DNA of 43,689 nt from an uncultured Spirochaetaceae bacterium (lineage in GTDB: Bacteria; Spirochaetota; Spirochaetia; Sphaerochaetales; Sphaerochaetaceae), in assembly GCA_944392705.1 (NCBI GenBank), contig CALXXO010000003.1:1-43689 (forward strand), written 5' to 3'. Position numbers and translations under genes: made by a program. Positions 33,491 to 39,526 of this stretch are shown here, one piece after another. The first letter of the stretch is position 1. Every line of letters starts with the position of its first letter. The notes under the pieces were generated by a model, which searched no databases, was not told the DNA's origin, and worked only from the letters and a program-made list of their open reading frames with translations.

Positions 33491-34522
33491 TCACTTGCTG
33501 AAAGGATCCCAGGGATACTCCGACCTGCACTCTTCATAGAGAGAATAAGGATCCGATGGAAGGATGGAATCATCATCAGATATCCCAAAAACCTTCGCCG
33601 CCGCCTGGCCGAATATCTCTTCAAGCCTTCCGCATCCCGCTGCTTTCAGTTTGGACATAAGCAGAAGCATACCCGGAAGCCCTGGAATCCCAGAAGCTCC
33701 TTTCTCCTTGTCTGCGAAAGTATGCGGTGCATGATCCGACTCTGCCCAGTCTATCGTCCCATCCATAAGAGCATCAAAGACAGCCTTCCTGTCCTCTTCT
33801 GAGCGAAGTGGTGGATTCATCTTGAGATACCTGTCATGCTCTGCCGCGTCTGCTACTGTAAGAAGCGCATGATGGGGAGTTGCCCCCATTGTTATCCTGA
33901 ATGGAGCTGTCTTTCTCCTTTCTCTCACAAGATTGATGGTGGATGCAGCAGATACGTGGCAGATATGAAGTGTCCCGCTGAAACCTGTCTCCTCTGCGAG
34001 ATCTATCAGATCCGAGACACTGCCAGTCTCTGCTTCCGCAGGCCGCGAAAGAGAATGAGTCTCCCAGCGCCCAGGAACGAAAAGCTCACTCCTCATCAGC
34101 TCTTCTTTCTCCGCGTGAACTGCAAGAACCCCTCTGTAATTGTTCTCCACAAGAGTCCTGAAGACTTTCCTCTGGTTTTCCTTTCCTATTATCCCCATGT
34201 TCCCCGTCGACTGTCCGGCGAACATCTTCAGCCCGATTACAAGGGGAAAGAGCTCACCGAAAAGTGAAACCATGGAAGCAATCTGATCGCTGTCAGATGT
34301 GATTCCTGCATAAAGATGATAGGACACACCTGTCTTTTCAGAAGCTTCACCGCCATCTGCAAGACGGGAAAGTATCGTATCGCGGTCAGTGCATGGAGGG
34401 TTGGTATTCGGCATATCGAAGAGATGGGAGAAACCAAGCTTCGAAGCGACGCTCATTCCATGAAGGATTGTCTCCTTATCCTTCTGGCCCCAGTCTCTTA
34501 GATGAACATGAGGATCAATCAT
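33491..34522 (-). CDS. pyrC: Dihydroorotase
   Basis: The protein has 343 residues from the ATG at 34522, the start that gives the family N-terminus MIDPHVHLRDWG; the frame's upstream extension lies inside pyrDK. Metal ligands are His5 and His7, Lys99 in GLKMFAGQSTG (the carboxylated lysine), later histidines in AVHAEKEE and HICHVSAAS, and the aspartate in ESDHAPH. It cyclises carbamoyl aspartate to dihydroorotate, the third pyrimidine step. It overlaps pyrDK by 4 bases (ATGA) and is the last gene of the pyr operon. Confidence 0.93.
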   Translation of the reverse strand: MIDPHVHLRDWGQKDKETILHGMSVASKLGFSHLFDMPNTNPPCTDRDTILSRLADGGEASEKTGVSYHLYAGITSDSDQIASMVSLFGELFPLVIGLKMFAGQSTGNMGIIGKENQRKVFRTLVENNYRGVLAVHAEKEELMRSELFVPGRWETHSLSRPAEAETGSVSDLIDLAEETGFSGTLHICHVSAASTINLVRERRKTAPFRITMGATPHHALLTVADAAEHDRYLKMNPPLRSEEDRKAVFDALMDGTIDWAESDHAPHTFADKEKGASGIPGLPGMLLLMSKLKAAGCGRLEEIFGQAAAKVFGISDDDSILPSDPYSLYEECRSEYPWDPFSK

Positions 34523-36186
34523 AGGGATACACCATTCTCTTTGAGAGTATGCCATGTGAAGAATGTGCCTTCCTTGCAAGGGAGATGCCCACCGCAAACA
34601 CACTCTCCGCACATTCCGATACCGCACATTGTATTCTTTTCCATAGAAAGATAGATGCGGTTATCATCCATCCCAAGGGAAGTGAGAATCATAGCAGCCT
34701 TCTCCATCATCTTTCCAGGACCGACGATATATGCGGAAACATCCCCTTCGATATCCTCCTTAGTGATTGTATCCAGAACTCTTCCCGGCTTACCGTCATC
34801 AGCAACTGCCTGGTAACGGCCGTAGGATGAGAGCACATCGCCAAGTGGTTCGTTCCCATCCTCCTTCTCAACGACACCTACCCTTATATCCATCTCAGTG
34901 CCATCGCCTTTGAGTTTCTCTCCAATGAGAGGAAGGACTGCAGCTCCGGTTCCTCCCCCGATAAGCAGAGCTTTCCTGGAAGGAGTATAGACCATCGGGC
35001 TTCCATAAAGTCCACGTGTATACACTGTATCGCCGACCTTTGTATCGAAAAGCGCCCTGGTGAACTCGCCGCGTTTCTTTATAAGGAATGTGAGAGGATT
35101 ATTTACAGCAACAGAGAAAGGTTTCTCCCCCTTGCCAGGGACCCAGATGAACACAAACTCACCCGGCTGACATGAAAGATTGCCGGAAAGGGTCATGATC
35201 ATAACATCTCCCTTGTGCATCTCGATTCCTGTCACAGTATGCGGAGTGTAGACAAGCTTATTCTCATTTGAAAGAAGGGAGGATACATCCCCTCCTGTTT
35301 TCATTGCATGGAGGTAATTCTCCCACTCTGTCGGCATAACCCTGGACAAAGCAGAACCGATGCCGACACTGTCTGCACCTGCTTCAAGCATAGCGCTTAC
35401 ATCACAAGGCCTGGTGACACCTCCCATTCCGAGGATAATGGGTTCATCGCCTATTGCTTTTCTTATCTCTCTGATACACTCAAGGGCTTCTTCCCTTACC
35501 CACTCTCCGGAAGCTCCGCCCTTTCCACCAACTTTATTGTTAAGAATAACAGCGCCTGAATGAGGTTCCGTATAGAGCTTTGGGCCTACCGTATTGATTG
35601 CGGCAATACCATCAGCACCAGCGTCAATAACAGCCTTTGCAATCATTCCGATATCGGGCACATTTGGTGTAAGCTTAATTATAAGAAGGGCTTTTCTTTC
35701 CGGGTATGCATCGTTTATCGCCTTGACATAAGACTCAGCAATGGCTTTATCGCTACCGATGGATGCCCCGTAGCCTGCTGCAGCATGAGGGCAGGAGAAG
35801 TTGAGCTCCAGCATATCGGCATAGGGGTCGAATGCTTTTACGAGCGTTATGAAATCCTCCGGGCTGGATGCTGAAAGGGATATATTGAGAAGAGCTCTCA
35901 TTCCATTTGCCCTGATTTCCTGTATTTCGGGCAGGATAACATCCATTCCAGGATTCCTGAGTCCCACAGAATTGCCGAAGTCACCGGCAGAAGGCGAGCA
36001 GACAATGGGCTCCCTGTTGCCAGGATTCGGCTTAACCTGGAAGCTCTTTGTCGTGATTATATCAATGCTTGGAATCTTCCTGTCGAAGAGTTCTATGAGC
36101 TCCTTCTTCGTCGATGCGACTCCTGATACCGTTGCAAGTATCGGAGTCTTTCTCAAATGGTTCTTCCTCAGTGCGCTTATATCCAT
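34519..36186 (-). CDS. pyrDK: Fused dihydroorotate dehydrogenase and electron-transfer subunit (PyrD-PyrK)
   Basis: The protein has 555 residues from the ATG at 36186. Residues 1 to about 300 are a class 1 dihydroorotate dehydrogenase barrel: Cys132 in LNFSCPH is the catalytic base position, KLTPNV at 171-176 and the FMN-phosphate segments GMGGV at 253-257 and GADSVGIGSAL near 270-280 follow. From about 310 a PyrK-like ferredoxin reductase module begins: flavin-binding KPFSVA at 355-360, NAD-binding GGGTGAAVLPLIG at 410-422, and 2Fe-2S cysteines Cys521, Cys526, Cys529 and Cys537. In Firmicutes these are two separate subunits of the NAD-dependent class 1B enzyme. The start overlaps the pyrF stop by one base (TGATG). 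Confidence 0.88.
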   Translation of the reverse strand: MDISALRKNHLRKTPILATVSGVASTKKELIELFDRKIPSIDIITTKSFQVKPNPGNREPIVCSPSAGDFGNSVGLRNPGMDVILPEIQEIRANGMRALLNISLSASSPEDFITLVKAFDPYADMLELNFSCPHAAAGYGASIGSDKAIAESYVKAINDAYPERKALLIIKLTPNVPDIGMIAKAVIDAGADGIAAINTVGPKLYTEPHSGAVILNNKVGGKGGASGEWVREEALECIREIRKAIGDEPIILGMGGVTRPCDVSAMLEAGADSVGIGSALSRVMPTEWENYLHAMKTGGDVSSLLSNENKLVYTPHTVTGIEMHKGDVMIMTLSGNLSCQPGEFVFIWVPGKGEKPFSVAVNNPLTFLIKKRGEFTRALFDTKVGDTVYTRGLYGSPMVYTPSRKALLIGGGTGAAVLPLIGEKLKGDGTEMDIRVGVVEKEDGNEPLGDVLSSYGRYQAVADDGKPGRVLDTITKEDIEGDVSAYIVGPGKMMEKAAMILTSLGMDDNRIYLSMEKNTMCGIGMCGECVCGGHLPCKEGTFFTWHTLKENGVSL

Positions 36187-37067
36187 CAGACAGCAGCCTC
36201 CGCAACAAGGGCGCGAATAGCTCTGATTACCATATCGAGCCAATCATCAGGGGCCCCACCCTTCTTCCATGGATGCGTAAGACCTGAGGATGAATTTATT
36301 CTTGCAAGTTCTGCAGGATATTCCGCAGCCTTGAGCGCAGCCATAACGTCGGTAGCGCTTCCTCCTTGAGAACCAACGCCAGGAATCAGCATCGGGATAT
36401 CGCGGTCGGAATAATAGGCTGCAATCTCTCCAAGTTCCTTCATGCTTGTCGCACCAACAACAGCACCGATTCCAGGATGCTCGGATGCCCAGCGGGAAAT
36501 CCGATGCGCGACAGAGATATACATAGGATAGAGTTCCTTCTCGTCGACGGCATCGATTGTAACGACATTCTGCAGATCCACAGCACCAGGATTTGAAGTG
36601 CGGTTGAGGATATATACTCCCTTATCCTCGAAAGCGAATGGCATTACCGAATCGGTTCCCATGTATGGCGATACTGTTACAGCATCTGTCTTCCAGACAT
36701 TGAAGGCTTCTTCGGCATAATTTCCGCTGGATCTCGCGATATCACCGCGCTTGCTGTCCAGAATGACAGTTACACCGGGGAAGAAATTCTCGATGAGGTC
36801 AAGGATATCGGCGAGAGCAAGAGACCCTTGGAAATCCTCCTCCCTCGGATTATCGAGAACCGCATAATACCCGATATTAGGCTTGAATGCAGCTGGAGAG
36901 AGCCCCTCCAGTCTCATTCTGTGGAATATCTCGGCAAAATAGGAGGAAAGGCGCTCCCTTACAGGAGCTTCCGATGCAGGAAGCACAGATATCACGGGAT
37001 CCAGGCCCATGCAGATAATATTTCCAGATGCCTTTGCGCTTTCTCTGAGTTTGTCGATATAGCTCAT
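36186..37067 (-). CDS. pyrF: Orotidine 5'-phosphate decarboxylase, type 2
   Basis: The protein has 293 residues, the longer type 2 form. GLDPVISVLP near 21-30, FKPNIGYYAV near 61-70, and the catalytic DSKRGDIARSSGNYA near 104-118 (the DxKxxDI motif) are clear; VVGATSM and LIPGVGSQGG are the phosphate-binding parts. It converts OMP to UMP, the last step of the de novo pathway. It overlaps pyrE by 4 bases and pyrDK by 1. Confidence 0.94.
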   Translation of the reverse strand: MSYIDKLRESAKASGNIICMGLDPVISVLPASEAPVRERLSSYFAEIFHRMRLEGLSPAAFKPNIGYYAVLDNPREEDFQGSLALADILDLIENFFPGVTVILDSKRGDIARSSGNYAEEAFNVWKTDAVTVSPYMGTDSVMPFAFEDKGVYILNRTSNPGAVDLQNVVTIDAVDEKELYPMYISVAHRISRWASEHPGIGAVVGATSMKELGEIAAYYSDRDIPMLIPGVGSQGGSATDVMAALKAAEYPAELARINSSSGLTHPWKKGGAPDDWLDMVIRAIRALVAEAAV

Positions 37068-37762
37068 GCCTTAACCTCCCTTGGAAATCCTCTCTTCTCT
37101 CCCCATCCGAAAGGATCCTCTCTCCATTCGTGAAGAACATCGGCTTCTTCGGAGGAGATATATCCTGTCTCACAGGCTGTGTGAATCATCGTATCGTAGG
37201 AAAGGATTGTATGGAAAATACACTCCGGATTCAGCGCTGCAAATGCATCGACAGCAGCCTGAAGGCCATATGTGAAGATGGCAAGGCAAAGAGTGCAATC
37301 CCCATTCGCATTCCTGATGGCTTCAACAGCTTTGAGGGAAGAAGAGCCCGTGGAGATAAGATCCTCAATAAGCACTACCTTCTGCCCGTTGTATCCATCC
37401 TTCCCAATCCCCTCAATCTGATGCCCCAGTCCATGGTCCTTCGAGGAGGAACGGACATATGAAAGCGGTTTGTAAAGCATATCAGCAAGGCTTGTGGCAT
37501 GGGGAATTCCGGCAGTTGCCGTTCCCGCGATATTATCGCACTTCTCCCCAGTGGCAGCGAGCATATCTGCAAATGCATCGCGGATAAGCGCTCTGTACTT
37601 AGGAGATGAAAGGAACATCCTGTTGTCATTATATATAGGCATCCTGTAGCCAGAAGCCCATGTAAATGGCGCTGCTGGAGAAAGTTTTATAGCTCCAAGC
37701 TCGAAAGCTCCTTTAGCCAGTATCGGTCCATAGTATTCTGTTATTTCATCAAGTCTCTTCAT
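37064..37762 (-). CDS. pyrE: Orotate phosphoribosyltransferase
   Basis: The protein has 232 residues from the ATG at 37762, with GGAG 6 bases upstream; a TTG four codons earlier is less likely. The PRPP-binding motif is VVLIEDLISTGSSSLKAVE, and AGTATAGIPHATSLADML and YVRSSSKDHGLGHQIEG are the other family segments. It joins orotate with PRPP to give OMP. It lies 21 bases after pyrBI and overlaps pyrF by 4 bases. Confidence 0.94.
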   Translation of the reverse strand: MKRLDEITEYYGPILAKGAFELGAIKLSPAAPFTWASGYRMPIYNDNRMFLSSPKYRALIRDAFADMLAATGEKCDNIAGTATAGIPHATSLADMLYKPLSYVRSSSKDHGLGHQIEGIGKDGYNGQKVVLIEDLISTGSSSLKAVEAIRNANGDCTLCLAIFTYGLQAAVDAFAALNPECIFHTILSYDTMIHTACETGYISSEEADVLHEWREDPFGWGEKRGFPREVKA

Positions 37763-37783
37763 ATCAATCTCCAATTTTATCAG

Positions 37784-39376
37784 TTATGAGCGTTTTTTCC
37801 AGATTTCCTTGAATGTATGGAAGCGTCCACAGTAAGCACAGGCAAAATGGCCATCCGCAGTACGATAGAAAGCGGCAGGGACCCCCTCTCCGTTCACAGG
37901 ATTGGAAATACAGGCTTCGTTCTGGCAGCAGAGATCATCGAAGTTATAGATGCGAGGTGGCATATGTGTTCTGTATTTCTCCGCGACACGGCCGGAGCGG
38001 ATTATATTCAGAGTACAATGAGGTGCCACTGCAGCAAGCCTTTTAAGGTCCTTTCTCTCAAGAGGTCTTGCACCAGGGCGGAATATGATTCCTTTGTACT
38101 GGCCATCGGATCCTCTGGAAACCCACTCACCCCCCTTCGAATCATCAAGTCCGAGAATTGATGATATAAGGCGCATATGGCTCCTGATTGCACCAGGATC
38201 ATCACCTTTGCAGATGTGGTCGATTACGATGCCGTCGGTAATCGGGCGAACACCTTCGGAGTAGTTCTTATCTTTCTTCTCTTTAGATGGTTCTACCTGG
38301 ATTATATACTCCTCTGTCCTTCTGTCCGTTTCATGTTCGCCAGGAACGGGAACATAATCATCTCCAATCTTTCCACCTATGAGGGAAAGCAGCACTATAC
38401 GGCAATACATACCATTGATAGCCTGTCTCTCCCAGGCGTTGAGAGGTGTCTTATCGAGCCATGTAGGGATAGTAGGATGCTCCTTGTGGCGCGGAAGCGG
38501 ATGATAGAACTTTGTTCCTTCCTTGATGCATGGAAGGAAATCGCGGCGGAATGTAATGGCTTCCCTCAGGATTTCCTGCTTCTGAAGAATCCGCTCACCC
38601 ATCCTCTCCAGCTGCGGCCTTGTAAAATACCAGAGCTTTGCAGGGTCTCCTGCTTTAAGATACTCCTCAATCGAAGAATAGATTGCTACCTCAAAGCCAT
38701 TCTCTTTCATCTTCTCGATGTAGGACTCCGGCATCATCAGCTCCTCCGGAGCAATCAGGTCGACCTTGACATGATCGAAGATTCTGAGCCCATCGGCTTT
38801 TGAATGCACCGTGCGGCCATGATAGAGATCACCTACGAGAGCAACATGAATCGAGCTGAAATCCATTCCAAGATCCTCAAGGAATGTGAATTCATCAAGA
38901 AGCTCCTGTGTAGGATGCTCATGCTTTCCATCGCCAGCGTTGATGAATGCAGGCCTGTATGGGAGGTTATTGCGCTCCGCATATTCAGAGCACTCCTCTG
39001 AAAGCCATTTCGTCAATCCTTCAACCTTGCTCCGAACGATGAAGATTGAATTATGATAGCCCGAAAGCATATTGAATGTGTCTGCATAGCTCTCGCCCTT
39101 GTTGATTGAAGAAGATGAGGAGATAAGCTCTGAAACCTTGGCATGGTGGAATGCCGCAGCATTCCTGAATGATTCCTTTGTCCTCGTGCTGTCTTCAAGG
39201 AACACTTCATAGATACCGAAGTCTGGATCGTTGATGCGGAAGGCATCCATCACCTTCTCATCGCCCTTGATGATTGCATCTTTTAGTTCTTTTACCTTTT
39301 TGAAGAAATATCTGCGCTCATTAATCGACAGATCGTCTATAACATTCAGCGATCTCGAAGCGAAAACATTAGACAT
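37784..39376 (-). CDS. pyrBI: Fused aspartate carbamoyltransferase catalytic and regulatory chains (PyrB-PyrI)
   Basis: The protein has 530 residues from the ATG at 39376 (AAGGAG 5 bases before). The first 350 or so are the catalytic chain: STRT at 63-66 binds carbamoyl phosphate, then HEHPTQELLDEF, GDLYHGRTVHS and FYHPLPRHKE. The remainder is the regulatory chain: GIVIDHICKGD is the nucleotide-binding start, and the C-terminal zinc site has the pattern C-x4-C ... C-x2-C (CQNEAC and CAYC). Such fusions are known in Treponema and Thermotoga. Full zinc and allosteric parts suggest feedback control by nucleotides. It heads the pyr operon behind an attenuator-like leader. Confidence 0.93.
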   Translation of the reverse strand: MSNVFASRSLNVIDDLSINERRYFFKKVKELKDAIIKGDEKVMDAFRINDPDFGIYEVFLEDSTRTKESFRNAAAFHHAKVSELISSSSSINKGESYADTFNMLSGYHNSIFIVRSKVEGLTKWLSEECSEYAERNNLPYRPAFINAGDGKHEHPTQELLDEFTFLEDLGMDFSSIHVALVGDLYHGRTVHSKADGLRIFDHVKVDLIAPEELMMPESYIEKMKENGFEVAIYSSIEEYLKAGDPAKLWYFTRPQLERMGERILQKQEILREAITFRRDFLPCIKEGTKFYHPLPRHKEHPTIPTWLDKTPLNAWERQAINGMYCRIVLLSLIGGKIGDDYVPVPGEHETDRRTEEYIIQVEPSKEKKDKNYSEGVRPITDGIVIDHICKGDDPGAIRSHMRLISSILGLDDSKGGEWVSRGSDGQYKGIIFRPGARPLERKDLKRLAAVAPHCTLNIIRSGRVAEKYRTHMPPRIYNFDDLCCQNEACISNPVNGEGVPAAFYRTADGHFACAYCGRFHTFKEIWKKRS

Positions 39377-39387
39377 GGCCACTCCTT

Positions 39388-39412
39388 AATAAAAAAGCCG
39401 GACAATGCCGGC
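39388..39412 (-). terminator. Intrinsic terminator in the pyrBI leader (candidate attenuator)
   Basis: On the minus strand GCCGG and CCGGC (39408-39412 and 39397-39401) form a GC stem with a 6-base loop, followed at once by TTTTTTATT. The T-run ends only a few bases before the pyrBI ribosome-binding site, so it must be read through for pyr expression. It could also end transcription from the upstream nitroreductase remnant. Confidence 0.72.
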
Positions 39413-39415
39413 AAA

Positions 39416-39478
39416 TCATTCAGAAACAATAATGGTAAGGGTCAACGATATGGAAAATCTTTCCATCTTATTTTTCAT
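39416..39478 (-). CDS. Putative pyrBI leader peptide (20 codons, PyrL-like)
   Basis: A short frame begins at ATG 39478, 6 bases after a strong GGAGG, reads MKNKMERFSI then SLTLTIIVSE, and stops at TGA 39416-39418. Three bases separate the stop from the terminator stem. A ribosome ending translation here would cover the stem and allow readthrough. The last part of the frame is U-rich in RNA (UUAUUGUUUCU), so RNA polymerase would slow when UTP is low, the mechanism established for E. coli pyrL-pyrBI. There is no sequence homology to PyrL; the claim rests on architecture. Confidence 0.6.
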   Translation of the reverse strand: MKNKMERFSISLTLTIIVSE

Positions 39479-39497
39479 CCCTTGCCTCCGATGTCGT

Positions 39498-39526
39498 AGA
39501 ATATCAGAAGGAGGAACCTGTGACAA
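39498..39526 (-). promoter_or_regulatory. Promoter of the pyr operon
   Basis: On the minus strand TTGTCA (39521-39526) and TATTCT (39498-39503) are separated by 17 bases. Transcription would start near 39490, giving a leader of about 115 bases that contains the leader peptide and the terminator. The -35 lies 16 bases after the nitroreductase stop. Confidence 0.6.

Follow-up and report, generated by a model that had tools for sequence, protein, structure and literature searches.

Among the described systems of pyrimidine control, the locus analysed here comes closest to the pyrBI operon of Escherichia coli and other enterobacteria, which is headed by the short leader gene pyrL. There, UTP-limited pausing on pyrL allows a coupled ribosome to block the terminator (PMC10135430), and UTP-dependent slippage is known as well at E. 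coli pyrBI (PMC6245113). Elsewhere, it has been reported that a stop codon near a terminator suppresses termination, and that catch-up of the ribosome within the first 100 bp needs pauses (PMC4824070). The Thermus pyr leader peptide is a further case of attenuation ahead of a pyr operon. In the literature that we searched, we came across no description of pyrL-type attenuation outside the enterobacteria, or in spirochaetes. Here, we describe a spirochaete locus that resembles the enterobacterial pyrBI-pyrL region in operon function and in having a short open reading frame (ORF) with a Shine-Dalgarno sequence (SD), a U-rich stretch, an intrinsic terminator, and an adjoining pyrB ribosome-binding site (RBS).

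The locus lies on the minus strand of the window, by which we mean the whole stretch of DNA that was analysed (43,689 nucleotides). Its spirochaete origin, surmised in a preliminary description made without database searches, was upheld; the nearest named relatives of the window's genome are Candidatus Ornithospirochaeta MAGs, and these belong with Bullifex porci and Sphaerochaeta to the family Sphaerochaetaceae. With NCBIfam profiles, the operon order in the window reads pyrBI-pyrE-pyrF-pyrDK-pyrC, and a fused PyrBI is found in 119 of 139 family genomes and in 48 of the 48 genomes of the window's genus. The features of the locus are as follows.

39498..39526, minus strand: promoter, with TTGTCA at 39526-39521, a spacing of 17 nt, and an extended -10 element TGA-TATTCT at 39503-39498; transcript start expected at about 39490
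39485..39489, minus strand: SD of the leader ORF, GGAGG; anti-SD duplex of -9.5 kcal/mol
39416..39478, minus strand: leader ORF of 20 codons, MKNKMERFSISLTLTIIVSE; ATG at 39478-39476 and TGA at 39418-39416, the stop lying 3 nt before the terminator stem
39479..39489, minus strand: 5' arm of the proposed RBS-sequestering hairpin, GGAGGCAAGGG; the evidence is family-wide and weak in the window's leader alone
39434..39441, minus strand: 3' arm of the proposed RBS-sequestering hairpin, CCCUUACC; directly 5' of the U-rich tract, and varying with the 5' arm in relatives
39422..39433, minus strand: U-rich tract, AUUAUUGUUUCU, the proposed UTP-sensitive pause region; U enrichment seen across 74 leaders
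39391..39412, minus strand: intrinsic terminator; stem-loop GCCGGCATTGTCCGGC at 39412-39397 (5-bp GC stem, 6-nt loop) and T6 at 39396-39391
39382..39387, minus strand: pyrBI RBS, AAGGAG, 3 nt after the T-run
37784..39376, minus strand: pyrBI, fused catalytic and regulatory chains of aspartate carbamoyltransferase; ATG at 39376-39374; NCBIfam NF009916, above cut-off
37064..37774, minus strand: pyrE (TIGR00336)
36186..37067, minus strand: pyrF (TIGR02127)
34519..36243, minus strand: pyrDK, one polypeptide with PyrD- and PyrK-like halves; ORF bounds, the true start being probably further in
33491..34627, minus strand: pyrC (TIGR00857, below cut-off); ORF bounds, overlapping pyrDK, the true start being probably further in

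The promoter, the 20-codon ORF, the GGAGG, the stop codon 3 nt from a GC stem, the T6 run, and the pyrBI RBS had all been named in the preliminary description, and each of them held to the base. Within the window alone, no element stands out beyond chance: its 1.5 kb contains 2 terminator-like sites (1.0 in shuffles) and 3 promoter-like sites (2.8 in shuffles), and folding of the leader, which had been proposed as a check, gave a z of only -0.58 for the window sequence. Since a single sequence stays within chance, the case rests on the relatives and is thus a comparative one, the layout recurring in nearly every one of them. For this, pyrBI upstream regions were collected from some 115 genomes of the family, and in each the start codon with the best anti-SD duplex energy, given a small ATG bonus, was taken as that of the leader, stop codons being ignored. 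Leaders more than 75% identical were collapsed, which gave 74 non-redundant leaders with an SD; as these share ancestry, the counts given below are not fully independent. One genome (G013) was seen to carry two distinct pyrBI loci, each with its own leader (L005 on contig C7 and L032 on contig C8), from either a duplication or the mixing of strains in the bin.

A terminator-like stem with a T-run precedes pyrBI in nearly all family genomes, and almost all of some 110 leaders, diverged as their sequence is, repeat the same order of promoter, SD, open frame, U tract, and terminator. The promoter scores above shuffles in 68 of 73 leaders (58 have the TG extension), and the median distance from the -10 element to the start codon is 22 nt across these 73 leaders. 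As for folding, the terminator is the favoured structure in 73/74 leaders, and we found no antiterminator, the 5' arm of the terminator pairing with upstream sequence less than it does in shuffles (0.30 versus 0.47; 74 leaders). More conspicuously, the fraction of U in the stretch from -25 to -6 ahead of the stem is about 0.465 in the 74 leaders, as compared with about 0.275 at 131 control terminators from the same genomes (P=2e-17). The U-rich tract is thus specific to the pyrBI terminator, and it is an element that the UTP-sensing reading needs; as sequence it is shown, though pausing within it is inferred, and U-richness by itself is no proof of UTP sensing. In the window, the first nucleotides to be transcribed include no T-run, so that we do not expect the UTP-dependent slippage known from E. 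coli pyrBI.

With regard to the leader ORF, the frame set by the SD runs on without a stop codon until no more than 12 nt separate it from the terminator stem in 71 of the 74 leaders, as against 29 and 23 for the other two frames, and 500 dinucleotide shuffles gave a count of only 28.2±4.0 with a maximum of 41. The stop codon falls just before the stem (-5 to +12 of the stem) in 34 leaders, where 7.7 would be expected, within the stem or T-run in 24, and past both in 13. Moreover, its position switches among close relatives, such as G033 and G024, the PyrBI of which is 94% identical to that of the window. The encoded peptides are unrelated across lineages, and their amino-acid make-up is that of shuffled nucleotides. 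Among close relatives, differences per codon position number 22/19/18 in the leader ORF and 18/15/41 in pyrBI for the same seven pairs. None of six spirochaete peptides matched the Pfam family PyrBI_leader (PF08052) at E<=1, a search in which the E. coli and Klebsiella peptides gave 3e-34 and 6e-15, respectively. From this comparison we conclude that there is selection on a translatable frame, independent of the peptide, with translation itself being an inference. What is conserved, we infer from the same comparison, is the access of a ribosome to the terminator stem and not the stop position or the peptide. The preliminary description had held that start, stop, and stem should be kept in relatives despite a changing peptide, and this was borne out, the peptide in fact changing completely; its statement that the peptide is not homologous to PyrL was also sustained by the lack of a PF08052 match. 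Its stop-before-stem layout survives only in part, many relatives reading through the stem as E. coli pyrL does.

Two further observations concern the leader ORFs. Some pyrBI leaders without an SD have an ATG near the expected transcript start (L231-L232 in f22, L045-L049 in the clade with PyrR, L165, L195, and L207 in g21), which suggests leaderless translation of the leader ORF. In f24 (L209-L212), a leader peptide, MIYSLITRSCKFCHPRLF, and variants of it show uncommonly high conservation from genome to genome, which is not the case in the window's family.

Neither of the elements to which we now turn the argument, namely the U-rich tract described above and a hairpin covarying over the leader RBS, had been mentioned in the preliminary description. 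Sequence alignment followed by RNAalifold did not recover this hairpin because its register shifts between leaders, and swap and shuffle tests were used in their place. In base-pair profiles, two regions were paired in excess, namely the SD and the segment from -36 to -21. When the SD/start segment was paired with the nucleotides -40 to -14 before the stem, the native duplexes had a mean of -16.6 kcal/mol, while swapping the 3' segments between leaders gave -11.8±0.34 kcal/mol, with 0 of 5000 permutations reaching the native value. This effect is present in each genus taken separately. According to a reversed-segment control, about 1.2 of the roughly 4 kcal/mol swap effect is shared composition; with composition removed by shuffling the 3' segment, the mean z was -1.67 (combined z -13.8), and 93% of the leaders were negative. 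Four control placements of the segments stayed near zero or slightly positive (|z|<=2.1). Moreover, a window-by-window pairing map revealed a single antidiagonal (start -10 to +3 with stem -30 to -17; z -12) and nothing comparable elsewhere, with pairing of the leader to the terminator arms being, if anything, avoided. In the closest relatives of the window, the two arms change together (AAGGG/CCCUU, AAGGA/UCCUU, and AAGGU/ACCUU). Of 68 leaders, 45 have the SD within the longest helix and 24 have the start codon within it; the 3' arm of the hairpin ends at about -17 to -21, the U-rich stretch coming next. The comparison thus shows a covarying hairpin that pairs the SD/start segment of the leader with a segment before the U-rich tract through lineage-specific complementarity. 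The window's own hairpin is a short helix with one mismatch and is not significant alone (z -0.27). Outside the family, in other spirochaete families and Clostridia, the hairpin is unsupported as a set (native -11.2 versus -10.4).

Our preferred reading is that the leader attenuates transcription, with a translating ribosome in the role of the antiterminator and the supply of UTP as the signal, as at E. coli pyrBI. We consider this likely, with a probability of roughly 0.74; the UTP response, the pausing, and the translation are all inferred, there being no expression or footprint data. In this view, polymerase supplied with ample UTP would cross the U-rich tract fast, upon which the 3' arm of the hairpin would emerge and the leader RBS would be covered, leaving the ORF untranslated and the terminator free to fold. 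With UTP scarce, polymerase would be slow to leave the U-rich tract, its exit channel still holding part of the 3' arm, and a ribosome could then initiate on the leader and trail the polymerase to a stop codon at or past the stem. There it would prevent folding of the terminator, and pyrBI-E-F-DK-C would be transcribed. The kinetic gating of the leader RBS by UTP-dependent pausing is thus an inferred step, and the hairpin may instead, or also, act as a pause hairpin, the data not separating the two.

This last possibility forms the rival that survives best, namely a coupled attenuator whose hairpin would be of the classical pausing type known from the trp and his leaders, halting polymerase until the ribosome melts it, with no gating involved. 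In its favour, the end of the 3' arm at about -17 to -21 followed by a U-rich stretch is the geometry of a hairpin-stabilised pause. Against it, the covering of the SD (45/68) and of the start codon (24/68) would be needless for a pause. Moreover, when the pause at E. coli pyrL was tested, there was no effect of NusA and no rescue by compensatory mutants (PMC9291695), though the hairpin tested there was a different, local one. On balance, we lean slightly away from this alternative.

A second rival, which we regard as unlikely, is a ribosome-dependent attenuation that senses some other signal, for instance CTP, the general translation capacity, or an amino acid (arginine, with which carbamoyl phosphate is shared). 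A leader ORF and terminator without an antiterminator would indeed answer any change in ribosome-polymerase spacing, and arginine is slightly raised in the leader peptides (8.2 versus 6.0%). However, no codon is strongly enriched and there is no antiterminator, the U tract is specific to the pyrBI terminator, and the operon is purely one of pyrimidine biosynthesis. An amino-acid leader-peptide attenuator was itself considered and rejected, with no regulatory codon run (the make-up matching shuffles) and no antiterminator.

Control of the attenuator by PyrR or a riboswitch, with the ORF being incidental, is very unlikely and already largely refuted. It is true that control by PyrR is what is commonly found at pyr attenuators elsewhere, and that PyrR occurs in 5/139 family genomes, all from one clade of the window's genus (G003, G004, G005, G029, and G030). 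However, the PyrR-binding RNA (RF00515) was found in 0 of 48 genomes of that genus by a search that detects the one of Bacillus subtilis, no Rfam family matched in the window at gathering scores, and neither the window's genome (75% complete) nor 133 other family genomes yielded a PyrR gene. The open frame, moreover, is far above chance. The absence of a PyrR-binding loop, as first noted, therefore stands. Just as unlikely, a constitutive terminator of the upstream gene with a chance ORF, pyrBI being transcribed from elsewhere, would accord with each element being within chance in the window, but not with the fixed order in which the elements recur across nearly all the roughly 110 diverged leaders.

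The five genomes with PyrR deserve a separate description. Their short leader ORF has no SD, and PyrR-free g21 genomes are similar; the idea that PyrR replaces the leader ORF was accordingly rejected as confounded by these g21 genomes. In all five, pyrR is divergent from a uraA-type uracil permease gene (in L132, at 1453-2043 on the plus strand and 2-1276 on the minus strand; also L135-L138), and none has a match to carA. The uraA leader in this clade has an apparent hairpin with its own T-run, although for carA and uraA no attenuator of the pyrBI type was seen (few loci, inspected by eye). In addition, TGTTGCA and TTGCAACA motifs are repeated upstream of carA (L269-L274) and between uraA and pyrR (L132 and L135), and these may possibly be operators of an unknown regulator.

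Beyond the family, the layout of terminator and ORF is present in spirochaete families f24, f4, f17, f5, f25, f22, and others, and absent in many. Five loci from gut/rumen Clostridia (L100-L104; PyrBI 70-71% identical) also have a leader with an SD-bearing ORF, a U-rich tract, and a terminator. In the family of one of these Clostridia, such a PyrBI occurs in 1 of 101 genomes, and 5/5 of the Clostridia genomes have PyrR. As the spirochaete-like PyrBI is rare in its own Clostridia group and PyrR is also present, horizontal transfer is suggested and appears likely. With PyrR and a spirochaete-like operon together in these Clostridia, it can be asked how the operon with its leader functions in a foreign host. 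The roughly 85 diverged leaders of the window's family amount to an evolutionary experiment beyond the reach of the few enterobacterial sequences, and by implication transcription and translation would be tightly coupled near promoters in spirochaetes, with the leader offering a natural reporter for such coupling.

In comparison with the known systems, the PyrR attenuators of Firmicutes likewise stand ahead of pyr operons, whereas the spirochaetes have no PyrR site and, one clade excepted, no PyrR. The trp and his attenuators similarly combine a leader ORF, an upstream hairpin, and a terminator, with ribosome position being decisive, but they depend on a regulatory codon run and an antiterminator, both of which are missing in the spirochaete leader. 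At E. coli rph-pyrE, an upstream frame also ends before a terminator (T8) ahead of a pyrimidine gene, though this frame is a real gene, rph, and that of the spirochaetes a throw-away leader. Closest is E. coli pyrL, and the PyrL-type UTP-sensing attenuation originally proposed for the window is supported by our comparison, the sensing of UTP being inferred and not measured. Nevertheless, pyrL ends beyond the terminator, 3 nt before pyrB, whereas the spirochaete ORF is shorter and its stop is often just before the stem; the leader peptides are not homologous, and the spirochaete aspartate carbamoyltransferase chains are fused. Given that lack of peptide homology, an origin independent of the enterobacterial pyrL, as also claimed at the outset, is likely but not proven.

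The set of spirochaete leaders, besides showing selection for ribosome access over peptide, brought to light the RBS hairpin, which was then predicted in E. coli pyrL. In K-12, the pyrL SD, CGGGAGGA, is predicted to pair with UCUUCCCG in the U-rich region (P=0.001-0.002 versus shuffles), and the latter arm stops some 16 nt short of the terminator stem. Duplexes in the same place are found for Klebsiella (P=0.05), Photobacterium (0.01), Aeromonas (0.10), and Proteus (0.17), and in this pyrL set the native mean is -20.9 as compared with -16.1 for swapped segments, although the sequences are few and not all independent. E. coli pyrL is thus predicted to have the same hairpin topology. The literature that we searched held no description of RBS sequestration at pyrL, but it did not cover the main review (Turnbough and Switzer 2008), and we claim no priority. 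A bolder reading, which we would judge as apt to be right as wrong, is that coupled UTP-sensing attenuators are two-hairpin kinetic switches. In these, the 3' arm of an RBS-hiding hairpin would lie just before or in a U-rich pause tract, and polymerase speed, as set by UTP, would decide whether a ribosome loads before closure, a design that would be common to the Sphaerochaetaceae and E. coli pyrL despite their unrelated peptides.
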